Source: a bacterium
GTDB lineage: Bacteria > Bacteroidota > Ignavibacteria > UBA10030
DNA: 37,249 bases
Assembly (NCBI GenBank): GCA_007280275.1
Contig: QYQB01000335.1
Span: 1 to 37,249, forward strand
Direction of reading: 5' to 3'
Positions 10,307-37,249 of this stretch are shown in pieces; within the stretch, counting starts at the first letter, position 1; every line of letters starts with the position of its first letter. The translations under genes and the position numbers were made by a program. The notes below the pieces were generated by a model. It was given only the letters and a program-made list of their open reading frames with translations, did no database searches and was not told the DNA's origin.

Positions 10307-10969
10307 TTATGTTGCATCAGGGTCGAGGGTCCGAATAATGCGAGCCGGGACACCAGCGACAACAACATTGTCCGGTACATCCTTTACCACAGCCGCACCT
10401 ACCCCCACGATAACATTGGATCCGATAGCAATGTGTGGATGTATGGAAGCTCCAACTCCTATGAGCGTGTAAGAGCCAACGCGTACGCCGCCACCAAATG
10501 AAGCTCCACCAGACAGGATCGTAAAATCCCCGATAACGCAGTGGTGGGCGACGATTGCAGATGTCCCCATGAATACGCCGTCACCGATAGTCGCTCCTGC
10601 GTGAATTGCCGCGCCCATCTCAAAGATGCCACCCAAACCAATCCTCTCGGGAGAATTCACCATGACCTGTGGATGTATCGCGCGAACAAGTTCCAGTCCT
10701 GCTTCGCGAAGACGAGCGGTCATTCGCCCTCGCGTGTGATTGTGCCCAATGCCGACTATACCTCCTTGGACGCCGGCCTCCCTTATCAATTTCGGGATCG
10801 CATTCAGGTCCCCAAGAACAGGAAGACCGAGGTACTCTTTTCCGTGCTTTGCAGAGTTGTCATCCAAGAAGCCAAGAATTTCTATGTTGGTATCATGCCG
10901 AAGGCAGTGGAATGCCTGAAATCCATTCTCCCCACAGCCATATATGACGATCCTCATGGTGCTCTTCAT
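10307..10969 (-). CDS. pglD: PglD/NeuD-like sugar O/N-acyltransferase (left-handed beta-helix)
   Basis: A 220-residue protein, the usual PglD/NeuD length. The N-terminal Rossmann-like part (IVIYGCGENG, 7-16; GFLDDN, 33-38) binds the nucleotide sugar. The C-terminal hexapeptide repeats (about 112-205) form the acyl-CoA-binding beta-helix. SAIVAHHCVIGD (137-148) matches the PglD catalytic segment, with His142 aligned to the known base, and the end VVAGVPARIIR is typical. Expected role: N-acylation of the 4-amino sugar made by the PglE-like enzyme. With a CoA-transferase and an SDR just upstream, the acyl donor may not be acetyl-CoA. ATG 10957 (MRIVIYG) is an alternative start preceded by GAAGAG. 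Confidence 0.85.
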   Translation of the reverse strand: MKSTMRIVIYGCGENGFQAFHCLRHDTNIEILGFLDDNSAKHGKEYLGLPVLGDLNAIPKLIREAGVQGGIVGIGHNHTRGRMTARLREAGLELVRAIHPQVMVNSPERIGLGGIFEMGAAIHAGATIGDGVFMGTSAIVAHHCVIGDFTILSGGASFGGGVRVGSYTLIGVGASIHPHIAIGSNVIVGVGAAVVKDVPDNVVVAGVPARIIRTLDPDAT

Positions 10970-11317
10970 AGAAGTTGTTATTAACTATCCACACTAGGAA
11001 TTTGTTGGCTACAATACGAAACGGAGATGTGGTTGGAGACTTTTGGCCTTTTTGAGCCTCACCAGCGAGCAAATCCGACATGCACTTTTGCCAACTCAAC
11101 ACAAGATTCTGCGAGAAGTCCTAAATGGATCACTAGGGACCAGTGGGAGCGAAAACAGCCCCTGAGAGAATCAAAGTTCCGACGTTGAAGCACCTCGCTA
11201 GATCCATCGATGCGGATGTATGCTGCACAACCGCCGCGCTCTCCTTCGAATTCCTCTTGTCTGAGCGACTCTGGAAGATCTGCATATTGCGAATTACTTG
11301 CCATGCGGAATATGCTG
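10970..11317. other. Intergenic stretch, no gene supported
   Basis: 348 nt between the SDR and the PglD-like gene. A 108-codon minus-strand frame (11059-11385) overlaps the SDR 3' end, resembles nothing I know and is not called. No terminator hairpin is seen. Confidence 0.4.
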
Positions 11318-12118
11318 TCAGCGCCCTCCGGACTTTGCATGCCTATGAGCGAGTTGGGGAAACTGAACGGCGAATTTTCCTCCACTTATGTCTAGATGAG
11401 CACCGGTGATATAAGACGCTCTCTCTGAGGCGAGAAACATTACTAGTTGAGCAATATCCGAAGTTTCACCCCACCTTCGTATTGACAAAGAATCAAGCAG
11501 CCTTTCCTTGGTGGCGGGAGAAGCATCCGCGTAATGATTCAGCTCCGTTGGTATCATTCCGGGCGCATAAGCGTTCACTGTGATATTCCATGGCCCTAGC
11601 TCGGCTGCCATCACCTTGGTCAGCGCAACGACTGCAGCTTTTGACGCCGAATACGCGGACATCGAAATAGACGGAATAATTGCAGCGAATGAGGAACAGT
11701 TCAATATTCGGCCCCATTGTTGGTCCTTCATGATCGGAATCACGGCCTGGCTGCAGAGGAACGTACCCTTGAGATTGACATCAATATTGTCAGTCCAAGA
11801 ATCTTCTTCAAGTGATTCGACATAGCCGCCGGGGGCGACTCCCGCATTATTTACGAGGATATCTATTCGCCCGAATTTGTTCCTGGCTTCAGAGATACAG
11901 CCTGTGACATCTACTTTCGTTCTCACATCTCCTTCGAAAATGTGCACGAAGTCTCCCCTGTCCTTCATTTCTGTCCTTAAATTGCTCACCAATTCACTAT
12001 TGTTGTCCATGCACACAACTCTAGCACCTTCTGCGAGGAATGTGGAGGCAATCATATGTCCAATACCGCGTCCTGCACCTGTAACAACTGCGACTTTGTT
12101 CTTCAGGTTTATCTCCAT
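11318..12118 (-). CDS. Classical SDR oxidoreductase (FabG-like)
   Basis: A 266-residue short-chain dehydrogenase with every standard landmark: cofactor loop TGAGRGIG (13-20), VNNAG (89-93), Ser142/143, YSASK (Tyr156, Lys160) and the C-terminal ITGAHLDISGG. CMDNN after the second strand has an acidic residue, which favours NAD(H) over NADP(H). A good ribosome-binding site (GAGAGG) precedes ATG 12118. The gene lies 137 nt downstream of the CoA-transferase. That pairing suggests reduction of a ketoacyl-CoA or similar acyl substrate, although a sugar substrate is equally possible on sequence alone. Confidence 0.87.
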   Translation of the reverse strand: MEINLKNKVAVVTGAGRGIGHMIASTFLAEGARVVCMDNNSELVSNLRTEMKDRGDFVHIFEGDVRTKVDVTGCISEARNKFGRIDILVNNAGVAPGGYVESLEEDSWTDNIDVNLKGTFLCSQAVIPIMKDQQWGRILNCSSFAAIIPSISMSAYSASKAAVVALTKVMAAELGPWNITVNAYAPGMIPTELNHYADASPATKERLLDSLSIRRWGETSDIAQLVMFLASERASYITGAHLDISGGKFAVQFPQLAHRHAKSGGR

Positions 12119-12255
12119 TTTCTGCCTCTCTTTCGAGTATTCGTTACGTTTTCTTCTCTGGATTTCTCACCCTTAGCGACCACTGATTGCCGTAGTGAAG
12201 TCAGGTCTCAGCCCTGCCGACCTACCAAAATGTGGCTGAACAGCAACCTAAGCCT

Positions 12256-13800
12256 TCATTGAATCGGCATTTCCATCAGTGTGGAAGAGATAATAGGTAA
12301 AAACTCCATATGCGCTAGTATGTCTCGTGAGGGATCTACGCCGGGGGCCACTTCCGAAAGGAGTAGGCCTTCTCTTGTTAGCTCGAACACACATCTTTCC
12401 GTGATGTAAAGGACGCGTTTTCTCTGAAGGGTAGCCCTTCTTCCCGAGAAGGTGACATGCGACACCTTCTTTACAAACTTGGACACTTTACCCTCAGCAA
12501 TGATTTGTATGGAACCATCTTTGGACTCTCCGAGAGTCAGACCATGCGCAGTAAATGATCCACAAAATACTAAGGTATTTGTCGCTTGCACAATATCCAT
12601 GAATCCGCCCGACCCGAGATACTTGCCGGAGAACTTACTGACATTGACGTTTCCATGTTGATCGACCTCAGCGAATCCCAAAAAAGCGATGTCAAGTCCT
12701 CCGCCGTCATAGAACAGGAATTGATCCTCTTGTCTAAGTATGGAGGTGGGGTATGCAGAAATTCCGAAGTCAGGCACAGGATATGGAATTCCGCCGTTGA
12801 CGCCGCTTTCCAGGGTGAAGAAGAGCCTTTTTTTGTCACCACGTTTTTTGAGAATGGCTACTATATCAGTGGGTATTCCTTGACCAAGATTCACTACTTG
12901 ATTGTCCTCTAGCTCCAATGAAGCTCGGTGCGCAATCAATGACCTCGTCAAAGGCATCTGGTCAATGAAAGGTGACTCCAACTGGTCAGCAGCCGACTTC
13001 CCAATTGGCTCTCCACAATCGATTGGGTCATACACTTTTGAAACACTCTGACGATGTTGAGTCTCAACGTCGGTGCAAATGACAACATAGTCGACAAGAT
13101 GCGCTGGGATAACGACCCTCTGAGCAGGAATTGAACCACGAGGAACAATCCTTTTCACTTGGACTATCACCGTTCCGCCTGAATTCCTCGCAGCAATTGA
13201 TGAGGAGAGCCCTTCAACCGATGCCGCCTCTTCCTCGAAGGACACATTGCCCTCCTCATCAGCTGTGGATCCTCGAATGAACACCACGTCGACAGGAAAA
13301 GACTCGTACAACATCCATTCCTCATCTCTTATCTTGACAATCTGCAGATATCGATCGGGTGTAATTGAGTTGAGCCTACCACCCTCCTCACGCGGATCCA
13401 TGTAGGTTTCAATTCCGACCTTTGTCAAAACACCTGGGCTCCCTGAGGCGATTGCCCTGTATAGTGCGCTGATTTGACCTTGGGGAAAATTATACGCCTC
13501 GATCTTGTTTTCTAGCGCTAATCTCATCAACTGCGGTATTGTTCCCCAAAAACCTCCGATTACTCTTTTCAACAATCCTGGCACGCTCAAATGTTCTAGT
13601 CCATTTGGTTTTGAACTATCACCTTGCGCACTTGAAAAGACCAATGTCAGACCTTTTGGTGAGCCAGTTTCGTCGAATCTCTTTCTAAGCTCGGATAACA
13701 ATAGCTCGGGTGAAGATGCCCATCTGAATCCGGTACTTACCAAAACACTGTCATCTTTGATTTTCAATATGGCTTGTTTTGCGGTACAAACTTCGGCCAT
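12256..13800 (-). CDS. Family I acyl-CoA:carboxylate CoA-transferase
   Basis: A 514-residue protein in which the alpha and beta halves are joined in one chain, like the YdiF/propionate and acetate CoA-transferases. The N-terminal half has the VLVSTGFRWASSPELL opening. The C-terminal half has VNLGQGIPTDI (303-313) and the catalytic Glu331 in LESGVNGGIP, followed later by FLGFAEVD and GSGGFMDI. The enzyme moves CoA between short acyl-CoAs and free acids in the cytoplasm. This is normally fatty- or keto-acid metabolism, so its place inside a glycan locus, next to an SDR and an N-acyltransferase, is unusual. It may activate the acid used to acylate an amino sugar. ATG 13800 is clear. Confidence 0.88.
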   Translation of the reverse strand: MAEVCTAKQAILKIKDDSVLVSTGFRWASSPELLLSELRKRFDETGSPKGLTLVFSSAQGDSSKPNGLEHLSVPGLLKRVIGGFWGTIPQLMRLALENKIEAYNFPQGQISALYRAIASGSPGVLTKVGIETYMDPREEGGRLNSITPDRYLQIVKIRDEEWMLYESFPVDVVFIRGSTADEEGNVSFEEEAASVEGLSSSIAARNSGGTVIVQVKRIVPRGSIPAQRVVIPAHLVDYVVICTDVETQHRQSVSKVYDPIDCGEPIGKSAADQLESPFIDQMPLTRSLIAHRASLELEDNQVVNLGQGIPTDIVAILKKRGDKKRLFFTLESGVNGGIPYPVPDFGISAYPTSILRQEDQFLFYDGGGLDIAFLGFAEVDQHGNVNVSKFSGKYLGSGGFMDIVQATNTLVFCGSFTAHGLTLGESKDGSIQIIAEGKVSKFVKKVSHVTFSGRRATLQRKRVLYITERCVFELTREGLLLSEVAPGVDPSRDILAHMEFLPIISSTLMEMPIQ

Positions 13801-14036: not shown

Positions 14037-15956
14037 TCAAATACGCAATTTAACCTTTAAAAAAGTTTTTTCATCATGTGCGCGGTAAGCCTCTTTCCAA
14101 TTTTCAAAATCGAAGACATGCGCATCCAGGTGTTCAAAATTCAATTTGGGAGCTACTCGAAGAGCCTCCTCAAAATCCGAGTAGCTGCTTCCGACAGTCC
14201 CTATGATCGATTTGTCTAGGCATACCACGCTTTCGAGATTTGCCTGAGATTTTCCATAAGGCAATCCTACCAACAAAATGGATGTGCCGATTTTCGATTT
14301 ACTAATGACCTCATTCGCCAAATCTAGAACTCCTGTCGCTTCCACAACATAAGAGTAGCGGGCGAAGCTAGTGACAGTGTCACAATGTTCACAAGGAATA
14401 TCAGCCAGTAGTGCCATGCGTTCAGCATTCCTCTCAATGACTCCTACGCGATGCCCGAGATGATGAGCCAATTGCGCCGACAGATGACCGATAGGACCAG
14501 CACCGACAACAAGAACATTGCATACTCCGACCTCTTTTGAGTCTTTCAACCCGAGCCTTCTGAATCCCTTCATCACAACAGCCAGAGGTTCGATGCTCGA
14601 AGCACTAATTGGTCTAAGACCCGGGGGGATTTTGTGAACAAAACGCGACTCCAGAATCAGGTATTCTGCACAAGCTCCGTCATAGTTTATCACTCCTACT
14701 TCCCTTCGATTTGAGCATGCGGTGAAGTAGCCCTTCAGACAATCTTCACAGACACCGCATGATAGAATGCACTCCCCCACTACTCCATCTCCCACTTCCA
14801 CATTATCCACCTTTGGTCCCTTCCGGACTACGATTCCGGAGTACTCGTGACCCGGGACGATAGGATACTTTGCCCACCCCGATTTGTAGTATTCCAAATG
14901 ACCTCGCAGAACTTCAAGGTCGGTTGAACATATTCCGACAAAAGCGACTTTAATCAGGACTTCATTGGGCTTGACAGGATTCAAGGAGTGCACTTTCAAC
15001 GACGCTCTATTTTCAGATTCGATCTCAAGAACTTTGAATTCATCGTACCGGTAGTTCGAAGCGAAATCCTTCAAGTCCTTTTGTGGGACGGCGATAGACT
15101 TTAGATAAGCCTTGCTTGTGCTCCATCGATATCCTAATACATCTCTCGTCGAAACACTGGCTTTCCGCCTTCGAGCTAAAAAGTAATCCGCAGGGATTTT
15201 CACCAATTCTCCGACCGATCTCGTCAGAAGCTCTCCATTTCCCCACATCTCGATGTTTTTGGCTGCAATAGCCTCACGAAAACTCCTACGAAATATCTGA
15301 TCGTTTGTCTCTCGATGGAAATGATAGACCTCCGCTTCTGGCTGATACGCGACCCTGAAACCTTTCGCCATGAAGTGCTTCGTCCATTCAATGTCTTCAA
15401 GCCCCGTGAGTTCTTCATTGAACGGGTGATCACTCCACACGGTTCTAAGGATCATTGAATTCGCGTTGTTACTAAAAAAATCTTTGCCCGACTGGATGAG
15501 AAATCTGTCTTTGTACGTTCTCTCGAAATCAAGTAGTTCGCAGAAATGCGAATTGCCATCTCCCCTCTGCTTGCCATACACTTTGACGATTGCGCTCTCG
15601 CCATCGCGAATGTCGAATGCCTTTAAACAGGAAGCGATCCACCCATCGTTCACTGGTAAAGTGTGAGCAGATAGAATGCCTACATACTCGTGGCTTGCTT
15701 CCTTGATACCAAGGTTCAAGGCAAATCCAAATGTGAAAGCACGTTGATCGATCTGCAGTACTTTATCACAATATTTTCTCGCGATTTCAACCGTCCCATC
15801 AACCGATCCAGAATCAACCAGTATGATCTCGACATTCTTTACCGTTTGGGAGCGCAAAGCAACCAAGAGTTGTTCAATGTACTTCGACTCATTGAATGAT
15901 CGAATTATGATGCTGACTAATGGCGCTTGCTCATCAATAGAACAATCTATAGACAT
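14037..15956 (-). CDS. Fusion: GT2 glycosyltransferase + zinc-dependent medium-chain dehydrogenase
   Basis: A single 639-residue frame. Residues about 12-235 are a GT-A family 2 glycosyltransferase: VSIIIRSFNE (14-23), VDSGSVDGT (47-55), LSAHTLP (95-101) in place of a classic DxD, and a conserved EDIEW (187-191). Residues about 305-639 are a complete zinc alcohol dehydrogenase: catalytic zinc ligands Cys343 and His370-Glu371, structural zinc Cys400/403/406/414, and NAD loop VGAGPIG (484-490). No stop or frameshift separates the halves. This is a true fusion or a gene merger. The start overlaps the upstream gene by 23 nt, with AAGGGA before ATG 15956. A coupled oxidise-and-transfer (or make-and-transfer) job on one sugar is an inference. 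Confidence 0.88.
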   Translation of the reverse strand: MSIDCSIDEQAPLVSIIIRSFNESKYIEQLLVALRSQTVKNVEIILVDSGSVDGTVEIARKYCDKVLQIDQRAFTFGFALNLGIKEASHEYVGILSAHTLPVNDGWIASCLKAFDIRDGESAIVKVYGKQRGDGNSHFCELLDFERTYKDRFLIQSGKDFFSNNANSMILRTVWSDHPFNEELTGLEDIEWTKHFMAKGFRVAYQPEAEVYHFHRETNDQIFRRSFREAIAAKNIEMWGNGELLTRSVGELVKIPADYFLARRRKASVSTRDVLGYRWSTSKAYLKSIAVPQKDLKDFASNYRYDEFKVLEIESENRASLKVHSLNPVKPNEVLIKVAFVGICSTDLEVLRGHLEYYKSGWAKYPIVPGHEYSGIVVRKGPKVDNVEVGDGVVGECILSCGVCEDCLKGYFTACSNRREVGVINYDGACAEYLILESRFVHKIPPGLRPISASSIEPLAVVMKGFRRLGLKDSKEVGVCNVLVVGAGPIGHLSAQLAHHLGHRVGVIERNAERMALLADIPCEHCDTVTSFARYSYVVEATGVLDLANEVISKSKIGTSILLVGLPYGKSQANLESVVCLDKSIIGTVGSSYSDFEEALRVAPKLNFEHLDAHVFDFENWKEAYRAHDEKTFLKVKLRI

Positions 15957-16560
15957 GGTATTTCCCTTGGAACGATTCAGAGGCCTTCACGAATAGTTCT
16001 TCTTGATATTCTATGGTGGAAATAATCACAGAATCTACGGGATAGTTCGGAAGTCTTGAAGCGTCAACGACATCAACGCCATTCACTTTGTTTCCGTGCT
16101 TACTTACATCATCATCGATTATGCATTGAACGTGGAGGTCATTGTCCGCGAAGTATTTGAAAAATGACAATGTCGTATCACTCGCGCCATACAACGCTAT
16201 GTTTTCGCATCCAAATTGTTTGATTCGGGAGACTAGGTCTCTGAAGAAAAGCTCAGAATGCTTCTGAAGCGCGATCAACTCTAACTGATAGTCAATGTAA
16301 TGTTTTTTCAGACCGACCGCGCCATTCTTCGTAAGCACGAGTTTGTGATTTTCGCCCTCTATCAATTTTTGGATGAAATCCTTTTCAATCAATTCGTGAA
16401 TCGTTATCCTTTGCAGCAGAGTAGCCAAGTTCAAATCAGTTGACTCTAACGGCAGAGATATCTGCCGCAGCTCATCGAGCCTGGCTAGTAATTGAAATTC
16501 GTAGAAGCGCTTTGTATGTTCGAAGTACTTCCACCGTTGTGATTCATTGCTAGTTTTCAT
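15934..16560 (-). CDS. Uncharacterised protein with C-terminal Rossmann/PglD-N-like domain
   Basis: The frame is open to 16713, but that would overlap the hydrolase gene by over 100 nt. ATG 16560 leaves a 46-nt gap and has AGGAG about 10 nt upstream, giving 208 aa. The first half is helical and charged, without known motifs. The second half (from about 118) reads NIALYGASDTTLSFFKY (120-136), then CIIDDD and GVDVV, ending in VDSVIIST...: the beta-alpha-beta pattern of the nucleotide-sugar-binding domain in PglD/NeuD proteins and in the tails of some sugar methyltransferases, with no catalytic domain attached. It sits between the metallo-hydrolase and the GT2-dehydrogenase fusion, overlapping the latter by 23 nt. 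Function unknown. Confidence 0.75.
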   Translation of the reverse strand: MKTSNESQRWKYFEHTKRFYEFQLLARLDELRQISLPLESTDLNLATLLQRITIHELIEKDFIQKLIEGENHKLVLTKNGAVGLKKHYIDYQLELIALQKHSELFFRDLVSRIKQFGCENIALYGASDTTLSFFKYFADNDLHVQCIIDDDVSKHGNKVNGVDVVDASRLPNYPVDSVIISTIEYQEELFVKASESFQGKYHVYRLFY

Positions 16561-16606: not shown

Positions 16607-17431
16607 TCAAGGACACTTTTTGAGGACGATGTTTTCTCCCGCTTGAAGAACAATAGCACGTTGATTGGGATTTTCTGTTGCGAGGTAATGGAGAAAATGG
16701 TTGGGGTTCTCACCGTTCACTGAGAATAGATCAAAGTGATTGGGTGACACGGTATCGATGTTAAGATATTTGGTAAGCTCAACGAGCTCTCTGCTGCCGA
16801 TACTGCCGACTATTCCCAACTTCTCACGAAACCAATCCCGGCCGTTGATCGGGGCAAAGAAATAATCAAATCGATATTTCCCCAAGTGGTCGATCAATCC
16901 TTCATACATAATTCCATCCCCCCAGAAGAACAAGGTGTGATCTCCATATTTGACCACATAAGACACACTGCACACTTTTTGTGTCTTTGGATCATATACG
17001 TCATAGTGCGCAGCTGGAATCGGTGTCACGCTGAAACCGCAAGTTTCGTAATTGTCGAACGGCTCTACTCGAATGACGGTTCGCATCTTTCCGCTAACTT
17101 TGTTTTGGTTCCAAGCTACCTCAGTGAGGAACAAATCAAATGGCCCAGGCAATGCTCCAAGAGTCCAAGGGTCCATGTGATCATTGTGACCGTGTGTAAT
17201 CAATACTGCTTCAACAAAACTGAGAGATGATGGGTCCAAGGGAGGAGGATATCTTCGCTTGGCGAATCTGTCGTTCAGGCCATTCTTATTCTCCACAAAG
17301 TCAGATAAATACGGATCAACAGCGATTACCGCGTCTCGAGATTTTATTAGATAGCCCGATTGGCCAAGAAACCATATGGCCAGTTCATCGCTTTCAAGCG
17401 AATACTGGGAAATGCTATTGCTCAGTGTCAT
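16607..17431 (-). CDS. UlaG-like metallo-beta-lactamase-fold hydrolase
   Basis: A 274-residue protein with the metal site HGHNDH (80-85), a downstream AHYD, FFWGDG (metal-bridging Asp) and PNHFD. This is the layout of the UlaG-type branch of the metallo-beta-lactamase fold, which includes the ascorbate-6-phosphate lactonase. Related proteins also cleave phosphodiesters. It would be a cytoplasmic hydrolase, since no signal peptide is seen. Its start overlaps the end of the PglC-like gene by 17 nt, so the two are likely translated together. In this setting it may open a sugar lactone or process a nucleotide-linked intermediate. The substrate is not predictable. Confidence 0.85.
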   Translation of the reverse strand: MTLSNSISQYSLESDELAIWFLGQSGYLIKSRDAVIAVDPYLSDFVENKNGLNDRFAKRRYPPPLDPSSLSFVEAVLITHGHNDHMDPWTLGALPGPFDLFLTEVAWNQNKVSGKMRTVIRVEPFDNYETCGFSVTPIPAAHYDVYDPKTQKVCSVSYVVKYGDHTLFFWGDGIMYEGLIDHLGKYRFDYFFAPINGRDWFREKLGIVGSIGSRELVELTKYLNIDTVSPNHFDLFSVNGENPNHFLHYLATENPNQRAIVLQAGENIVLKKCP

Positions 17432-18032
17432 TTTTCTTGTTTTGCGTTGGGAAGAACTCAGGCATTATTTTCTCTTTCTCAGGCGACACGCCTTTTCGCA
17501 TCACCACAGCGAGGATGGTGTGCGCAATTATCCGGACATCAAGAAGAATAGTATGATGTTCTGCGTACCATACGTCGAGATCAAGCCGTTCAGCCCAACT
17601 CAAAGAATTCCTTCCTTTTATTTGAGCCCAACCTGTGATACCTGGGTTGACATTAAGTCTTGTCAATTGCATCTGATCAAATCGGTCCTTGTATTGTAGC
17701 AAGAGTGGGCGGGGACCAACAACGCTCATCGATCCGCTCAGTACGTTGAAAAAATTCGGCAACTCGTCAATGCTGGTTGCGCGCAGAACATCCCCCAATT
17801 TTGTAATCCTGTCTTCTTCCTTTCTCGAATCACCATCAAATGTCTTTCTCATAGTCCTAAATTTGTACAGCGTGAACGGTTTGCCACTCTTGCCCAAACG
17901 TTCCTGCCTGAAGAAGACTGGCTTTCCATCCAATATAAGGATTAGACAAACAATTGTAAGCAATATCGGAGAACAAACAGTCAATCCTATAATCGAAAAG
18001 AATATGTCAAAAAGCCTTTTACCCATATTCAT
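17415..18032 (-). CDS. pglC: Initiating sugar-phosphate transferase (PglC-like phosphoglycosyltransferase)
   Basis: A 205-residue monotopic phosphoglycosyltransferase, the short PglC length rather than the long WcaJ/WbaP form. One N-terminal re-entrant helix (about 8-34) is followed by KFRTM (57-61), the catalytic dyad Asp89-Glu90 in TSIDELPNFFNVL, the VGPRP motif (105-109) and PGITGWAQI. The enzyme moves a sugar 1-phosphate from UDP-sugar to undecaprenyl phosphate at the inner membrane, which starts the repeat unit. With PglF-, PglE- and PglD-like genes in the same locus, the primer is probably a bacillosamine-type sugar. A second in-frame ATG lies at 18026. Confidence 0.9.
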   Translation of the reverse strand: MNMGKRLFDIFFSIIGLTVCSPILLTIVCLILILDGKPVFFRQERLGKSGKPFTLYKFRTMRKTFDGDSRKEEDRITKLGDVLRATSIDELPNFFNVLSGSMSVVGPRPLLLQYKDRFDQMQLTRLNVNPGITGWAQIKGRNSLSWAERLDLDVWYAEHHTILLDVRIIAHTILAVVMRKGVSPEKEKIMPEFFPTQNKKNDTEQ

Positions 18033-22767: not shown

Positions 22768-24882
22768 CTACGACAGTTCAACCCATTCACCAGTTCTGAG
22801 GCTTTCTATGGCAGCAAAACTTGCGGCGGTTGTGTTTATGATATCATCAAATGGAATGAGTGGACTTCCGTCGTGACGCACAGCGTCAAGAAGCAATCGG
22901 AATTGTTCATTGTGTCCCTTATCCATTCGGGATTTCAGATGAGAAAATCCTTTGAATCCGTAGCCCGTGAGCTTTCGCCAATTATCAAGCACACAAACCC
23001 GACCTAGGGAAAATACCTCAATTCTCTCCTTCGGATAGCTCTTCGTGCCATTCGAGAAATAGTTTATCACCGCGTTGCTTCCATTGGCGTATTTTAACAG
23101 TATGGACGCATTGTCCGTGGTCTCCGCAGGTTCATTACCCATCGCATTCATGAATACTTTCGTGACCTTGCTTCGTGCGAGATAGGAACACAGATCGATG
23201 AAATGGCAAGCCTCACCAATGATCCGACCTCCACCGATGGTAAAGTCGTGCACCCATGCATTGTCTGGTATGTACCCTGCATTCATTGTCGCAACAACGT
23301 TCATCTGACCATCGCCTAACAAGATCCTCATCCTTTGCGCAAAGGGTGAGAATCTACGATTAAAACCAACGTTTATCGTTTTTCCAAATTGGCTCTTGGC
23401 TTCAATGATCTCCCGCAACTCTGACTCGTTGAGTGCTAACGGTTTTTCTACGAACACGTGTTTCCCTGCAGCCAAAGATTCCACAATCATGCGAGCATGA
23501 AGATTATGTCGAGTAGTAATCAATACCAAATCTACATCCGGGTCACTAAGAATTTCCTTGTAGTCGGATGTCGCATTGGCAATCCCGAATTTCTTAGCAA
23601 GGGTCACAGCTGTTACACCCCCGGCACTCGCAATGTATTTAACGTTCGGCTTGAGTTTTCTGAGCGCGGGCAAGAGAGTTGCACTTGTAAAGTTACCGGA
23701 TCCGATTATTCCCAAAACGCCTTTGGTTCCTCGAAATGAATCGGAAGCAAAGTTAACTGTTTTGTTTGCTCGTACATTTTTGTCGTAGACCAGAATCGAT
23801 CCGACTGAGCCACTCTCATTCATATTTTCGTAGATATTCCGAAAATCCTCGAGCGGCACACGTTCAGTGATGAGTGGTAATACGTCTATTTGCTTACGTG
23901 ATATTGCCTGAAGTACTGCCTCAAAGTTTCGTTTTTCCGTCCAACGTACAAATCCTATCGGGTAGTCATTTCCCTGCTCCTCGTAATTGCTGTCATACCT
24001 CCCAGGTCCGTAGGAACAGGACACACGGAAAGTAATTTCCTTTTCATAGAAGTCAGAGCGGTCTAAATGGAGACCCACCACACCTATCAGGATGATACGT
24101 CCACGCTTCCGAGTCATTTGTGCTGCCTGATGCATGAGAAGGTGGTCCTTTGATGACGCTGTAATGAGTACTCCGTCCACACCAATTCCGTTGGTTTCTT
24201 CCAGCATTCTCTTGACGGGATCGGATCCCGATTTCGGACTCATCGGAATAATCCCAAACTGTCGCGCGAGCTCTAGTTTCCCTACGTCCAGATCAAGACC
24301 AAATACCCTAGCACCGTTTGCCTTAAGCAACTGGGCTGTGAGCAAGCCAATCAGTCCAAGCCCTATCACGGCAAAACACTCCCCAAACGATGGTTCAGCG
24401 AGCCTAATGCCTTGTAATCCAATGGACCCCATCACCGTGAACGCTGCCTCTTCATCGGACACAACGTCAGGAACAATTGCGGTCAGGTTTTTGGGTACGC
24501 AAACAAATTCTGCATGAGGACCATTCGACGCCACACGATCACCCAGTTTGAATCCATGAACACCTGCCCCAACGGCTGCTACGGTTCCCACATTACAGTA
24601 ACCAAGAGGTAGTGGTTGGCCCAGCTTGTTGAAAACGGCGTCAAGAGTCGGCCTAATCCCGTCCGTGCCCATCTTATCAAACACCTCTTTCAATCTCTCC
24701 GGTTGCTGCCTGGCTTTGTTTATTAGGCTCGCTTTCCCAAATTCAACCAAGGTCCTCTCGGTCCCAAGTGAGACGAGCGTTCTTGAGGTTTGAATCAATA
24801 AAAAGCCCGGCTTCACCTGAGGCACAGGCACATTCTCGAGGATCGTTTGACCCGTTTTAAGCGACTGAATTAGCTGCTTCAT
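22768..24882 (-). CDS. Bi-domain oxidoreductase: zinc-type dehydrogenase + Gfo/Idh/MocA
   Basis: 704 residues from ATG 24882, chosen because GGAGAG lies immediately upstream and MKQLIQSLKTG is the usual family opening; the frame is open to 24933. Residues about 1-370 are a medium-chain dehydrogenase (GLGLIG, 174-179) that lacks the Cys-rich structural zinc lobe. Residues about 388-704 are a Gfo/Idh/MocA dehydrogenase with GSGNF (394-398) and the signature EKP (479-481). These bi-domain proteins are regularly found beside heparinase II/III genes in surface-glycan loci, as here. A role in redox editing of a sugar nucleotide or lipid-linked sugar is a reasonable inference. The substrate is unknown. 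Confidence 0.87.
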   Translation of the reverse strand: MKQLIQSLKTGQTILENVPVPQVKPGFLLIQTSRTLVSLGTERTLVEFGKASLINKARQQPERLKEVFDKMGTDGIRPTLDAVFNKLGQPLPLGYCNVGTVAAVGAGVHGFKLGDRVASNGPHAEFVCVPKNLTAIVPDVVSDEEAAFTVMGSIGLQGIRLAEPSFGECFAVIGLGLIGLLTAQLLKANGARVFGLDLDVGKLELARQFGIIPMSPKSGSDPVKRMLEETNGIGVDGVLITASSKDHLLMHQAAQMTRKRGRIILIGVVGLHLDRSDFYEKEITFRVSCSYGPGRYDSNYEEQGNDYPIGFVRWTEKRNFEAVLQAISRKQIDVLPLITERVPLEDFRNIYENMNESGSVGSILVYDKNVRANKTVNFASDSFRGTKGVLGIIGSGNFTSATLLPALRKLKPNVKYIASAGGVTAVTLAKKFGIANATSDYKEILSDPDVDLVLITTRHNLHARMIVESLAAGKHVFVEKPLALNESELREIIEAKSQFGKTINVGFNRRFSPFAQRMRILLGDGQMNVVATMNAGYIPDNAWVHDFTIGGGRIIGEACHFIDLCSYLARSKVTKVFMNAMGNEPAETTDNASILLKYANGSNAVINYFSNGTKSYPKERIEVFSLGRVCVLDNWRKLTGYGFKGFSHLKSRMDKGHNEQFRLLLDAVRHDGSPLIPFDDIINTTAASFAAIESLRTGEWVELS

Positions 24883-25608
24883 TCTCTCCGGACTCCAAGT
24901 GAATAATAGTGCACAGATCGAGCGGCGATCCACAGTCTGGGTGACAGATCCGTGCTTGGATGATTTCTTTGTGTAGATTCCCAGATGCCGAACAACAGTT
25001 ATTGATTAGTCTGCGACTGACTCCCGCTCTGCCGGCTATGTAGTGCTGCGAGCAATGAGGTCATGTGGCCCTTACACCCTCTGATATCACAGGACTTCTA
25101 CTCGGTCTTTAGGAAGCTCACTAGGATTTATCGCTCGACCTGCAAAACACCATATCAGCGCTCAAAGATGCAGCCGAAATGACAGATCTCACTGCAAACG
25201 GACTCGAAGAGGATCGTGCTCCAGGACGACCCTCGTATCTCTTTCGACAAGCCAAGAAGGCATAACCTCAGAGCATCTTCTAACCAAGGGATGGTTGGAA
25301 GACTCACTTGGTCACATCCTCCAGTTGTTCGGAAAGCGCGAGCAAGTTCCAACGAGCCTTCGGTTCGCCAATCAGACTCCGTTGCCATTTTGAATGCCGA
25401 TTTGACCCCGATCGGTATGTCTTTGTACCGTGCCCCACCACACCGCGCTTCGCGCACACCGTGGACAGCTGAGTCACATCGACCGAAACATTGCGAATCG
25501 ATCTTCCGCCGCGCCTTCTCTCCATCAATCAGGGCTAGAACCCTCCAGTCTACCACCCCATCGAGATGCAGAAACAACCAATCCGCTCACATAGACCGAT
25601 TTGGGATC
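24883..25608. other. Long gene-poor gap between hisF and the bi-domain oxidoreductase gene
   Basis: 726 nt. A 140-codon minus-strand frame (25155-25577) and two competing frames cover the same GC-richer stretch. None resembles a family, and none has a convincing ribosome-binding site. It could be a decayed gene. No repeat or RNA gene is seen. Confidence 0.4.
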
Positions 25609-34216: not shown

Positions 34217-35233
34217 TCAACCTCGGAGCTTCTTGTACGAGAGCCTGATCTGATGCAAGAATTCCCTTATCACGGGATTCACTGAGGCCGCTACAGCTAC
34301 TACCGAAGTACCGAGAGAAAGCAGGAACGCAAAGACTATATCTGCCAGTTTCTGCGGTGAGGAACTCGCGACCGGAACTCGGGCCGGATCGAGAACATTA
34401 ATGATTGGTACGTTCTTGATCTCTTCTATCTTAGCGATCTCGACCTGTTTCTTCAATTCGATGAAGATCGTTGAATTGATTTGAACGGCACGTTCAAGCC
34501 TTCCTTGCATCAAGACTAACTGGGGTGAATCAGCAACACGACGATTTTTCTCTCGGAAGCTTCGTAACGAGTCCTCCACGGACGCCAAGGCGGACGCAAC
34601 GTCCTTAAGCCTCATCTCAATGAATTCGCGTTGAGCCGTGACACTTGTCCGCTTCTTCGTTCTGGTATAGATATCAAGCTCGGAGGTCGCTCGATTTGCC
34701 ACATCCGCCGCGAGCCCAGGCTCCTCCATTGAAACCTTCAGACTCAGTGTGCCAAGCCTATTATCAAAGCTCACTTCCATTCTATCTCGCAATAGATCTA
34801 GCGCTTTCTCGAATTTCTCAGCTTCATTCCTCTTTTTTATTCCCCAAAACCTAATCAAATCAACCGAGTCAGGGAATTCGGAAGTTTTGTATTTCGTATA
34901 CAAGACCTCGCTGAGGATACGCGCGCTCTTAACCATCACTGGATAGAGCTTTGATACGGGTGCTTCACCGATGTTGAGGCCTGTAACGGCAGCAAGATCG
35001 GAAGCACCAGCAAGCCCTAGCAGTTTGTTTTTTTCTAGATCTGGCAATATTGACGTCTCGGCAGTGTATTGACTCGGAATGAGGAGAACTATCACTGTCG
35101 TCAGCACTGTCATTAGGCCGACACAAAGTATTATTTGCCTCCTTTTCGTCCAAATGTGAGGAATCGAGATAAGTAGGTATTCCAGGACCACATGCGAATT
35201 CGAAGCCGACGTCTGTTTCAAGGGCGAATCCAT
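34217..35233 (-). CDS. wzz: Wzz-type chain-length determinant protein
   Basis: A 338-residue protein with a short cytoplasmic N-terminus, a first membrane helix at about 33-52, a long periplasmic part with coiled-coil-prone helices (about 120-275), the conserved proline-rich stretch INVLDPARVPVASSSPQK (about 277-294) and a second helix (about 296-316). No C-terminal tyrosine kinase domain is attached. It sets polymer length in Wzy-dependent systems. ATG 35233 is clear. It lies 191 nt downstream of the SLBB fragment. Confidence 0.87.
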   Translation of the reverse strand: MDSPLKQTSASNSHVVLEYLLISIPHIWTKRRQIILCVGLMTVLTTVIVLLIPSQYTAETSILPDLEKNKLLGLAGASDLAAVTGLNIGEAPVSKLYPVMVKSARILSEVLYTKYKTSEFPDSVDLIRFWGIKKRNEAEKFEKALDLLRDRMEVSFDNRLGTLSLKVSMEEPGLAADVANRATSELDIYTRTKKRTSVTAQREFIEMRLKDVASALASVEDSLRSFREKNRRVADSPQLVLMQGRLERAVQINSTIFIELKKQVEIAKIEEIKNVPIINVLDPARVPVASSSPQKLADIVFAFLLSLGTSVVAVAASVNPVIREFLHQIRLSYKKLRG

Positions 35234-35424
35234 ATAAGTATGATATTATCCGAGCCGTGTCTAGCGTGAGAGTGTGAATTGTGGAAGTGAGCCCGACCCA
35301 CAAATCAAATCCGGGATCCCCTCACATGCCTCTCCAAGGCACGCGATTCAGAACTCCAATGACATTCAACGTAATACTGGCCGATCGAAAGATCCCGGTA
35401 AGCGGTGGATCTCACTTCGGCCGC

Positions 35425-35814
35425 TCACTTCTTGATTTGAGACACCAAGTAAATTATCGTGGCTGCGCTCGCCATAACTGCAAATGAATCCTTGATCGTC
35501 GCCGACCAATCTATCGGCTTGCTTTCAGACGGCGGAGGGGGTGGTTTTGAAGCCAATCGGGACACCGTGATCACAGATCCATCAGGAATAGTTGGATTCT
35601 TGCTAAACCAGCCTAAGCCCGTCTGAATCACATAGCCTTCGGGATAAGTGATCAATGCAACATCGGCGCTGTCTGTTTCTTCGCCCGCCCGTTCGATGTA
35701 GAAACTCTTGCTTTTCCCATTGACGAATGAATAGACTCCCGGATTGCGGACCTCCCCCTGGACGAGCACTGTGAAGGGCCTCTGAGGAATAGTCAACCGA
35801 TCCCCTGGCGGCAA
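35425..35814 (-). pseudogene. C-terminal SLBB-domain fragment of a Wza-like export protein
   Basis: 129 residues from a TTG codon. The first part (PPGDRLTIPQRPFTVLVQGEVRNPGVYSF) is the middle and end of a polysaccharide-export SLBB domain, including the VxGEVxxPGxY core. A proline-rich linker and a C-terminal membrane helix (about 106-125) follow. The homology continues a few codons upstream of the TTG (HRYLEDIIL), where no usable start exists, and the periplasmic N-terminal domain and lipoprotein signal of a true Wza are absent. I therefore call it a truncated gene. It could still make a small membrane-anchored SLBB protein. Confidence 0.7.
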
Positions 35815-36024: not shown

Positions 36025-36516
36025 TTACTGCTTCTTCAACAATTCCTTCAGGAACACTAAATCAAGCTGATCTTTTTCGCGTCGTGTCTGTTTGAGCTTC
36101 CACAACAACTCGGGACTAGCAAACGAAATTGTGACGCCTTTGATATCGACGAACATCACGTCCGCTTTTGCTTCTTCATATTCGATTCCACAAGCGGATT
36201 TCATCAAGTCAACAACGAACTCGTCCGCAACTCTAACCACGGAATACTTGTCTACATCATCTGAGGCCAGATCCCGCACGGCCTGGTCCGGGAGCAGCAT
36301 CAGTGCTCGTCGAACACGCTCTTGATTTCCCGCGGAAGGATCGATCAACAGGTCAATATCTTCTGTTGCTCTTACAAAACCGGCCTGCACCATTGCCATT
36401 CCGCCTATGACGATGTAGCTCGCTCCAGCGTCGTTGAGACCGCGGCAAAGCTTGAGGAGATCGGTCAAAGAAGGCGGTCTGGATTCTCTCGTCTGGCCAT
36501 CATTCGTATCGACCAT
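36025..36516 (-). CDS. Nucleotidyltransferase-fold protein (AbiEii-like)
   Basis: A 163-residue protein with the nucleotidyltransferase signature GGMA (38-41) and the acidic pair in ATEDIDLLID (Asp53, Asp55). The C-terminus has SPELLWKLKQTRREKDQLDLVFLKELL, typical of this small stand-alone group. Relatives include toxin-like and uncharacterised proteins. Its start overlaps the upstream small gene by 52 nt, in another frame, so the two are probably coupled. It does not belong to the polysaccharide pathway. A toxin-antitoxin role is only a possibility. Confidence 0.8.
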   Translation of the reverse strand: MVDTNDGQTRESRPPSLTDLLKLCRGLNDAGASYIVIGGMAMVQAGFVRATEDIDLLIDPSAGNQERVRRALMLLPDQAVRDLASDDVDKYSVVRVADEFVVDLMKSACGIEYEEAKADVMFVDIKGVTISFASPELLWKLKQTRREKDQLDLVFLKELLKKQ

Positions 36517-36689
36517 TGTTGACTCTCTTCAAAACTGGAGAAACGGTAGAGGCCCTTGGGAATGAAGGGCTTCGATCCACGTAACAATTGAGCAAGTTCC
36601 AGGAACGGAGCCGCCGTTGTCAGGTTCGCATTTCCCTTTTTCCTCTTCCCGACGATCTTTATTGATTCTTTTGGTGTCTCGTTATCCAT
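36465..36689 (-). CDS. Small partner protein of the nucleotidyltransferase, 74 aa
   Basis: The frame is open to 36764, but ATG 36689 (MDNETPKESIKIVGKRKK) removes an arginine-rich leader without support. The protein is basic, and its C-terminal GLYRFSSFEESQQWSIRMMARR matches a small protein commonly encoded just before such nucleotidyltransferases. It overlaps the following gene by 52 nt. This arrangement is like a two-gene toxin-antitoxin or accessory unit. No DNA-binding motif is obvious. Confidence 0.65.
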   Translation of the reverse strand: MDNETPKESIKIVGKRKKGNANLTTAAPFLELAQLLRGSKPFIPKGLYRFSSFEESQQWSIRMMARRENPDRLL

Positions 36690-36814
36690 ACAATCTTTCA
36701 ACAGAATAGCAACCAGCGGCCGGCCGTCAGTGAAAAGTAGACAGAGAACAGTCCGCCTACGCAATCGCGCTTCCGCCTACACAAGGATCGTTACGGCGGA
36801 CAGGTCGGTGGATA

Positions 36815-36838
36815 AATGAACAGTGAATAGTAAACAGT
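36815..36838. repeat. Short heptamer run related to AGTGAAC
   Basis: AATGAAC, AGTGAAT, AGTAAAC and a partial fourth unit, in the same phase and orientation as the array at 35940-36009. Confidence 0.7.
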
Positions 36839-36886
36839 TGTGATGGCGCTCCACATCAGTTGCTCTCGTCCGCTTGGATCCATAAC

Positions 36887-36918
36887 TGTGAACAGTTAAC
36901 GGTAAACAGTAAACAGTG
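36887..36918. repeat. Short heptamer run related to AGTGAAC
   Basis: TGTGAAC, AGTTAAC, GGTAAAC, AGTAAAC and a partial unit. It lies directly 3' of the truncated four-helix-bundle gene. Confidence 0.7.
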
Positions 36919-36928
36919 GGTCGATCAC

Positions 36929-37072
36929 TTAAGGCTTCGGGAAAGCCCACTGAGCAATCAGACCAAAGCCCCCTTTCGCAGGGAATGATTCCGTCATCTT
37001 GTAGATATCGGTCACGAGATCTATGGCTCTTTGCCAGAGAGTCAGTTTCTTGTGCGGCCTGGGGTTGATCAT
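36929..37072 (-). pseudogene. Truncated four-helix-bundle protein (23S rRNA intervening-sequence type)
   Basis: ATG 37072 to TAA 36929, 47 codons. The peptide matches the first helix of the four-helix-bundle family: PHKKLTLWQRAIDLVTDIYK (6-25), then MTESFPAKGGFGLIAQ. Intact members are about 115-125 residues and continue with three more helices (QMRRAAVSIPSNIAEG type). Here the frame ends after Gln41 plus six unrelated residues. Heptamer repeats flank it on both sides, which suggests the loss happened at or near them. Confidence 0.65.
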
Positions 37073-37079
37073 AGCAACA

Positions 37080-37107
37080 TTTCACGGTTCACTGTTGACT
37101 GTTTGCT
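37080..37107. repeat. Inverted heptamer run (reverse complement of AGTGAAC type)
   Basis: In phase: TTTCACG, GTTCACT, GTTGACT, GTTTGCT, i.e. the complement of CGTGAAA, AGTGAAC, AGTCAAC, AGCAAAC. It lies between the truncated four-helix-bundle gene and the terminal nucleotidyltransferase fragment, in the opposite orientation to the other three runs. Confidence 0.65.
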
Positions 37108-37114
37108 GCTTGTG

Positions 37115-37249
37115 TCATACGCGAACGCCATCTCTTTCGACGTTCATATGGAATGGCATCGCACGATACAACGGCGCGTCCCATTGTTGACGACTATACA
37201 CCATTGCTAAGAGGACTTTTCCCGTTTCCAGCTCTATAGGATACAGCTG
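37115..37249 (-). CDS. 3' end of a nucleotidyltransferase-domain protein (5' part beyond the window)
   Basis: Forty-four codons and a TGA stop at 37115. The tail reads ...VLLAMVYSRQQWDAPLYRAM and ends in NVERDGVRV, the usual ending of MNT-type nucleotidyltransferases (VYSxxEW ... PFxxNVxREG). The catalytic GS-DxD part would lie outside the window. It is one of two nucleotidyltransferase genes in this accessory patch. Confidence 0.65.
   Translation of the reverse strand, partial: QLYPIELETGKVLLAMVYSRQQWDAPLYRAMPFHMNVERDGVRV

Follow-up and report, generated by a model that had tools for sequence, protein, structure and literature searches.

A probable glycosyltransferase–zinc dehydrogenase fusion gene in a surface-polysaccharide cluster of an Ignavibacteria genome

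Results

A two-domain gene within a polysaccharide cluster

The window, the whole stretch of 37,249 nucleotides that was analyzed, carries a single gene encoding a GT2 glycosyltransferase followed by a zinc-binding medium-chain dehydrogenase (MDR), and its features are collected in Table 1 together with related loci. The other two reading frames at this position contain many stops, so that chance does not account for so long an open frame. Pfam analysis of the full-length protein returned Glycos_transf_2 at residues 15–171 (E 9e-22), ADH_N at 329–444 (E 4e-26), Glu_dehyd_C at 455–630 and ADH_zinc_N at 488–600, all above cut-off. The two halves are joined without a linker: the GT2 domain closes at Y304, and F307 already corresponds to MDR residue 2 or 3. 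An earlier note on this DNA had described a GT2 and a zinc dehydrogenase, both complete in one frame, and this description is borne out by the Pfam matches, the alignments and the intact motifs. A single-sequence structure model of the whole fusion protein reached a mean pLDDT of 33 and was unusable.

Table 1. Coordinates of the fusion gene, its neighbors and related loci
Feature	Position	Strand	Remarks
GT2–MDR fusion gene	14037..15956	-	639 aa, ATG start, no stop inside frame
GT2 (GT-A) domain, SAH subfamily	15045..15956	-	residues 1–304; Pfam and alignment A1
Zinc-binding medium-chain dehydrogenase (MDR)	14037..15038	-	residues 307–639 and stop codon; Pfam, NCBIfam, PDB matches, end-to-end alignment
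Junction	15025..15043	-	out-of-frame ATG 15043-15041, TGA 15027-15025
Upstream gene	15934..16560	-	208 aa from ATG 16560 (259 aa from GTG 16713); overlaps fusion gene by 23 nt
MBL-fold hydrolase (UlaG/PRK00685-like)	16607..17431	-	two genes upstream of fusion; Pfam/NCBIfam
Small polyprenyl-phosphate sugar-1-phosphate transferase (Bac_transf)	17415..18032	-	Pfam
CoA-transferase (FadX-like)	12256..13800	-	next downstream gene, 236-nt gap; Pfam/NCBIfam
SDR (FabG-like)	11318..12118	-	Pfam/NCBIfam
NeuD/PglD-type sugar acyltransferase	10307..10969	-	TIGR03570 above cut-off
MDR–Gfo/Idh/MocA two-domain oxidoreductase	22768-24933		721 aa; adjoins heparinase II/III-like gene; Pfam
MBL-fold hydrolase (N-terminal) fused to SAH-type GT2	L022:3248-4912	-	554 aa
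SAH/SSH-type GT2 fused to C-terminal CTP_transf_3 cytidylyltransferase	L039:739-2106	-	455 aa
GT2–cytidylyltransferase–2-hydroxyacid dehydrogenase–SDR cassette	L023:8568-12012		
The same cassette	L024:8511-12474		
The same cassette	L025:2142-5487	-	

The fusion gene sits in a Wzx/Wzy-type surface-polysaccharide cluster, in which Wzx and Wzy were assigned by inspection. The co-directional genes encode a FlaA1/CapD-type protein, two DegT aminotransferases, a methyltransferase, a heparinase II/III-like protein and a PP-loop ATPase; the FlaA1, GT4, HisF-, HisH-, Wzx-, Wzy- and Wzz-like genes and one of the two DegT genes were named by inspection. The two-domain oxidoreductase at 22768-24933, likewise co-directional, resembles the GT2–MDR gene in carrying a fused MDR-type domain within the same cluster; it differs in that its partner is an oxidoreductase and its ADH_N match is weak and partial.

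The gene immediately upstream of the fusion matched no Pfam or NCBIfam family and had no relative in five same-genus genomes; by eye, the C-terminal half of its product resembles the Rossmann domain of sugar acyltransferases and FlaA1. The CoA-transferase, FabG-like SDR and NeuD-type acyltransferase lying in a row (10307-13800) hint at an amino sugar that is acylated, perhaps with a 3-hydroxyacyl group. Toward the end of the window, positions 35425-35814 encode a 129-aa C-terminal remnant of a long SLBB-type export protein, with no N-terminal part upstream in any frame, which by eye resembles the last part of a 1009-aa ORF in locus L025. Short simple repeats of the TTCACTGTTCACTG type, recognized in translation (VHCSLFTVH), occur at about 35220-35330 and 36500-37249.

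The GT2 half belongs to a subfamily with an altered metal motif

Judged by its sequence, the GT2 half is a member of a rare GT2 subfamily in which SAH replaces DxD. Its match to PF00535 scored 78.2 bits against a gathering threshold of 23.3 and covered profile positions 1–161 of 168, with the motifs DSGS at residues 48–51, SAH at 96–98 and GLED at 185–188. No DxD-type metal motif is present, SAH standing in its place; the relatives that were read have SAH, SGH or SSH at this position, which marks the replacement as a subfamily trait and not decay. The ED catalytic-base motif is present as E187 D188 and is invariant across alignment A1, in which the GT2 half shares 32–37% identity with ten relatives across the whole domain. 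This alignment extends from the start of the GT2 half to the conserved C-terminal F-Y-P segment of stand-alone relatives. In the genomes searched, relatives of the GT2 half are separate genes with 41–45% identity over the best segment.

Stand-alone members of the subfamily (L013/L024, L014/L025, L017 and L019/L023, and the plasmid genes WP_074647158.1, WP_215507021.1 and WP_120352595.1) share with the fusion the domain over its length, the SAH or SGH motif, ED and the F-Y-P segment. They differ from it in being about 320 aa long and in having no dehydrogenase; several have genes for a cytidylyltransferase, a 2-hydroxyacid dehydrogenase and an SDR downstream, a set that the window lacks.

The MDR half is complete and falls outside the named substrate families

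The MDR half matched ADH_N (PF08240) with 91.6 bits against a cut-off of 23.5 and ADH_zinc_N (PF00107) with 37.2 against 31.8. Its motifs are GICSTD at 341–346, GHE at 369–371, EPL at 456–458 and the NAD loop GAGPIG (GxGxxG) at 485–490; the catalytic zinc ligands are C343, H370, E371 and E456, and the structural-zinc cysteines lie at 400, 403, 406 and 414. The Glu that ends the second Rossmann strand (VIERN) points to a probable preference for NAD. The motif positions given in the earlier note are essentially borne out, by DSGS and GLED in the GT2 half and by C343, GHE and GAGPIG in the MDR half; the one correction concerns the DxD position of the GT2, which reads SAH.

End-to-end alignment with stand-alone MDRs placed their Met1 at fusion residues 306–308. 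In the searched genomes, relatives of the MDR half are separate genes with 28–35% identity, and they come from different genomes than the relatives of the GT2 half. The closest PDB matches are zinc dehydrogenases acting on alcohols, polyols and threonine. None of the NCBIfam equivalogs (threonine, inosose and galactitol-phosphate dehydrogenases, among others) was reached, the best score being 129.5 bits against a cut-off of 450, and thus no specific substrate family is indicated. The nearest relatives within the class are stand-alone, several of them beside LacI-like regulators or sugar kinases (by eye), and for this reason look catabolic.

One further explanation bears directly on these scores: the MDR could be a captured passenger that folds and may act on some general polyol or alcohol, with no role in the glycan pathway. 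The large distance from every equivalog cut-off favors such an origin, whereas all zinc-ligand and NAD motifs are kept, as expected under selection for activity, and the surrounding glycan operon runs in the same direction as the gene. We regard a passenger as very improbable.

A single fused gene or two overlapping genes

The bases at the junction read TAC CGG TAC GAT GAA TTC AAA GTT CTT GAG. They hold an ATG in the +1 frame, at the site where MDR relatives start, and a TGA 13 bases on; one indel here would yield two genes overlapping by about 20 nt, and neighboring operon genes do overlap by a similar 17 and 23 nt. These observations, the missing linker, the failure to find another case and the origin of the contig in a fragmented MAG of 338 contigs all favor the alternative that a pair of ordinary genes with overlapping ends was merged by the loss or gain of a single base, either through an assembly error or through a recent frameshift in one strain. 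The GT2 would then end at the TGA and the MDR would start at the ATG listed in Table 1.

Against this alternative, ATGs in an alternative frame proved to be frequent: among the window's genes, 29% of nine-codon stretches contain one, the figure for three codons being 11%, and given the encoded residues, about 80% of synonymous versions should carry the junction ATG. The ATG was accordingly rejected as proof of a frameshift. The remaining genes of the contig have long intact frames, so that indel errors appear rare and an error exactly here is, by our estimate, unlikely a priori. We consider the joining of two genes by an indel unlikely, and by judgement, not by computation, we hold it likely that the fusion is real and not a sequence error.

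The combination was not found a second time

The fusion protein was searched in 100 relatives and in 98 order, 391 class and 395 phylum genomes, sets that overlap; in the class and phylum searches, which stayed within one phylum, scoring was confined to the best 3 candidates per genome, and the E-value limits were 1e-27 and 1e-35. Other phyla were sampled through plasmids, phages and short-peptide scans. A second GT2–MDR fusion was not found in the order, nor among the best 3 candidates per genome in the class and the phylum: among the genomes searched at these levels, the fusion is held by the window's own genome only. In tblastn searches of plasmids and phages, no record covered 80% of the fusion protein, and a locus search with the full protein returned just short GT2 matches in archaeal MAGs. 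Viral contigs held no relative of the full fusion protein, and three weak viral loci were obtained with the GT2 alignment as query. Narrow literature searches for a GT2–dehydrogenase fusion gave nothing relevant.

Recurrence of the architecture and conservation of its neighborhood had been put forward in the earlier note as its own tests, and neither turned out in its favor: the fusion did not recur in the order, class, phylum, plasmids or phages searched, and in the GT2 loci examined (L015, L016, L021-L025 and L027-L030) no MDR like that of the fusion lies beside the GT2. The same note had named as its refutation homologues always split into two genes and a copy traced to an assembly error. 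The related genomes do not show such a split either, since they lack the pair altogether; an assembly error keeps a minor probability after the junction analysis. The GT2–MDR combination appears new in the material searched; its parts are ordinary. It is a private instance, and a single MAG contig underlies the biological claim.

Other fusions and a recurrent cassette in the GT2 subfamily

Elsewhere, the gene order GT2–cytidylyltransferase–2-hydroxyacid dehydrogenase–SDR recurs in L022, L023, L024 and L025. The hydroxyacid dehydrogenase beside the GT2 in these four loci is a D-2-hydroxyacid dehydrogenase, an assignment based on Pfam for the L022 set, and L024 has a Putative-cyclase family gene inserted between the GT2 and the cytidylyltransferase. 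The cassette is also found, whole or in part, on three Rhodobacterales plasmids (L015, L016 and L027), where the GT2 and a cytidylyltransferase are accompanied by an oxidoreductase that carries the annotation phosphoglycerate or NAD(P)-dependent dehydrogenase; two of the plasmids also have an SDR nearby.

Two loci carry fusions like that of the window, in which the same GT2 type and another operon enzyme form one chain. These are the MBL–GT2 protein of L022, which adjoins cytidylyltransferase, D-2-hydroxyacid dehydrogenase, SDR and MptE-like genes and whose GT2 did not turn up in 97 further genomes of its order, and the GT2–cytidylyltransferase protein of L039. They differ from the window's fusion in the partner, which in L022 is N-terminal. 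Fusion to operon partners therefore recurs in the SAH GT2 subfamily.

The MBL-fold hydrolase upstream of the window's fusion shares 29% identity with the relative that is fused to the GT2 in L022. As a marker of a common module, this gene was rejected: its relatives in the phylum are mostly stand-alone hydrolases beside Gfo/Idh or other metabolic genes, so that the MBL–GT2 link draws its support from L022 only.

No cytidylyltransferase lies beside the GT2 among the window genes read, and a query with the L025 cytidylyltransferase, run without a positive control, gave no match in the window's own MAG, which is 84% complete. A CMP-sugar donor for the window's GT2, which the neighbors elsewhere had suggested, was dropped on this ground.

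Discussion

With moderate confidence, we explain the gene as a two-domain protein that arose by the joining of operon genes and whose GT2 and MDR serve the same glycan pathway. This explanation builds on the open frame, the completeness of both halves with intact motifs, the polysaccharide context, the other fusions and the recurrent cassette of the GT2 subfamily, and the long intact frames of the other genes on the contig. Counted against it are the failure to find the fusion elsewhere, the missing linker, a second possible start and stop at the junction that fit a lost base, the lack of a match to a cassette-type cytidylyltransferase in the same MAG, and the unusable structure model. The gene would have originated by linkerless head-to-tail joining of two neighboring genes in one polysaccharide operon. 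Its N-terminal GT2 would add a sugar to a growing lipid-linked repeat unit, and its C-terminal zinc MDR would use NAD(H) to oxidize or reduce a sugar- or polyol-type compound of that glycan pathway, most likely at a step preceding the transfer, in donor supply or tailoring. Two separate active sites per chain would mainly secure co-expression in a fixed ratio, and channelling is not implied. That both domains are active, what their substrates are and in which order the steps run, we infer.

A closer coupling, as the earlier note suggested, would have the MDR oxidize or reduce one intermediate and pass it for transfer to the GT2 on its own chain. Both active sites are complete by Pfam and motifs, and the fusions of SAH GT2s to other candidate donor-pathway enzymes make a functional link plausible. 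We nevertheless find such channelling improbable: the fusion was not found a second time, its halves are not adjacent in the loci read, the nearest class relatives of the MDR are stand-alone and look catabolic, and the fused reductase–cytidylyltransferase Bcs1, to judge from a title cited in PMC10299916, works without it. We rate just as low the idea that the zinc MDR makes or edits the sugar its own GT2 transfers, as part of a broader tendency of SAH GT2s to fuse with donor-pathway enzymes (MBL-fold hydrolase, cytidylyltransferase, dehydrogenase); if true, it would imply that bacterial surface glycans contain an activated sugar acid or polyol that has yet to be described.

If real, the fusion would connect one particular glycosyltransferase with a redox step, narrowing the possible contents of this uncharacterized polysaccharide. 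The broader value lies in the GT2 subfamily, whose three different fusion partners and repeated cassette offer clues to one glycan pathway.

Among known enzymes, zinc MDRs of the L-threonine 3-dehydrogenase, galactitol-1-phosphate 5-dehydrogenase and scyllo-inosose 3-dehydrogenase type share the full motifs and both zinc sites with the MDR half, which differs from them in scoring below all equivalog cut-offs and in bearing an N-terminal GT2. For the fusion as a whole, the nearest characterized analogue in logic is Bcs1 of Haemophilus influenzae b, described in PMC10299916 as a bifunctional CDP-ribitol synthase, a reductase–cytidylyltransferase that has been characterized biochemically; the 2001 study by Zolli et al., listed among the references of PMC10299916, describes it in its title as acting without substrate channelling. 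Bcs1 resembles the GT2–MDR protein in that a single chain unites a redox reaction and a further step in the making of a surface polysaccharide, and differs from it in that the partner of its reductase is a cytidylyltransferase and not a glycosyltransferase.
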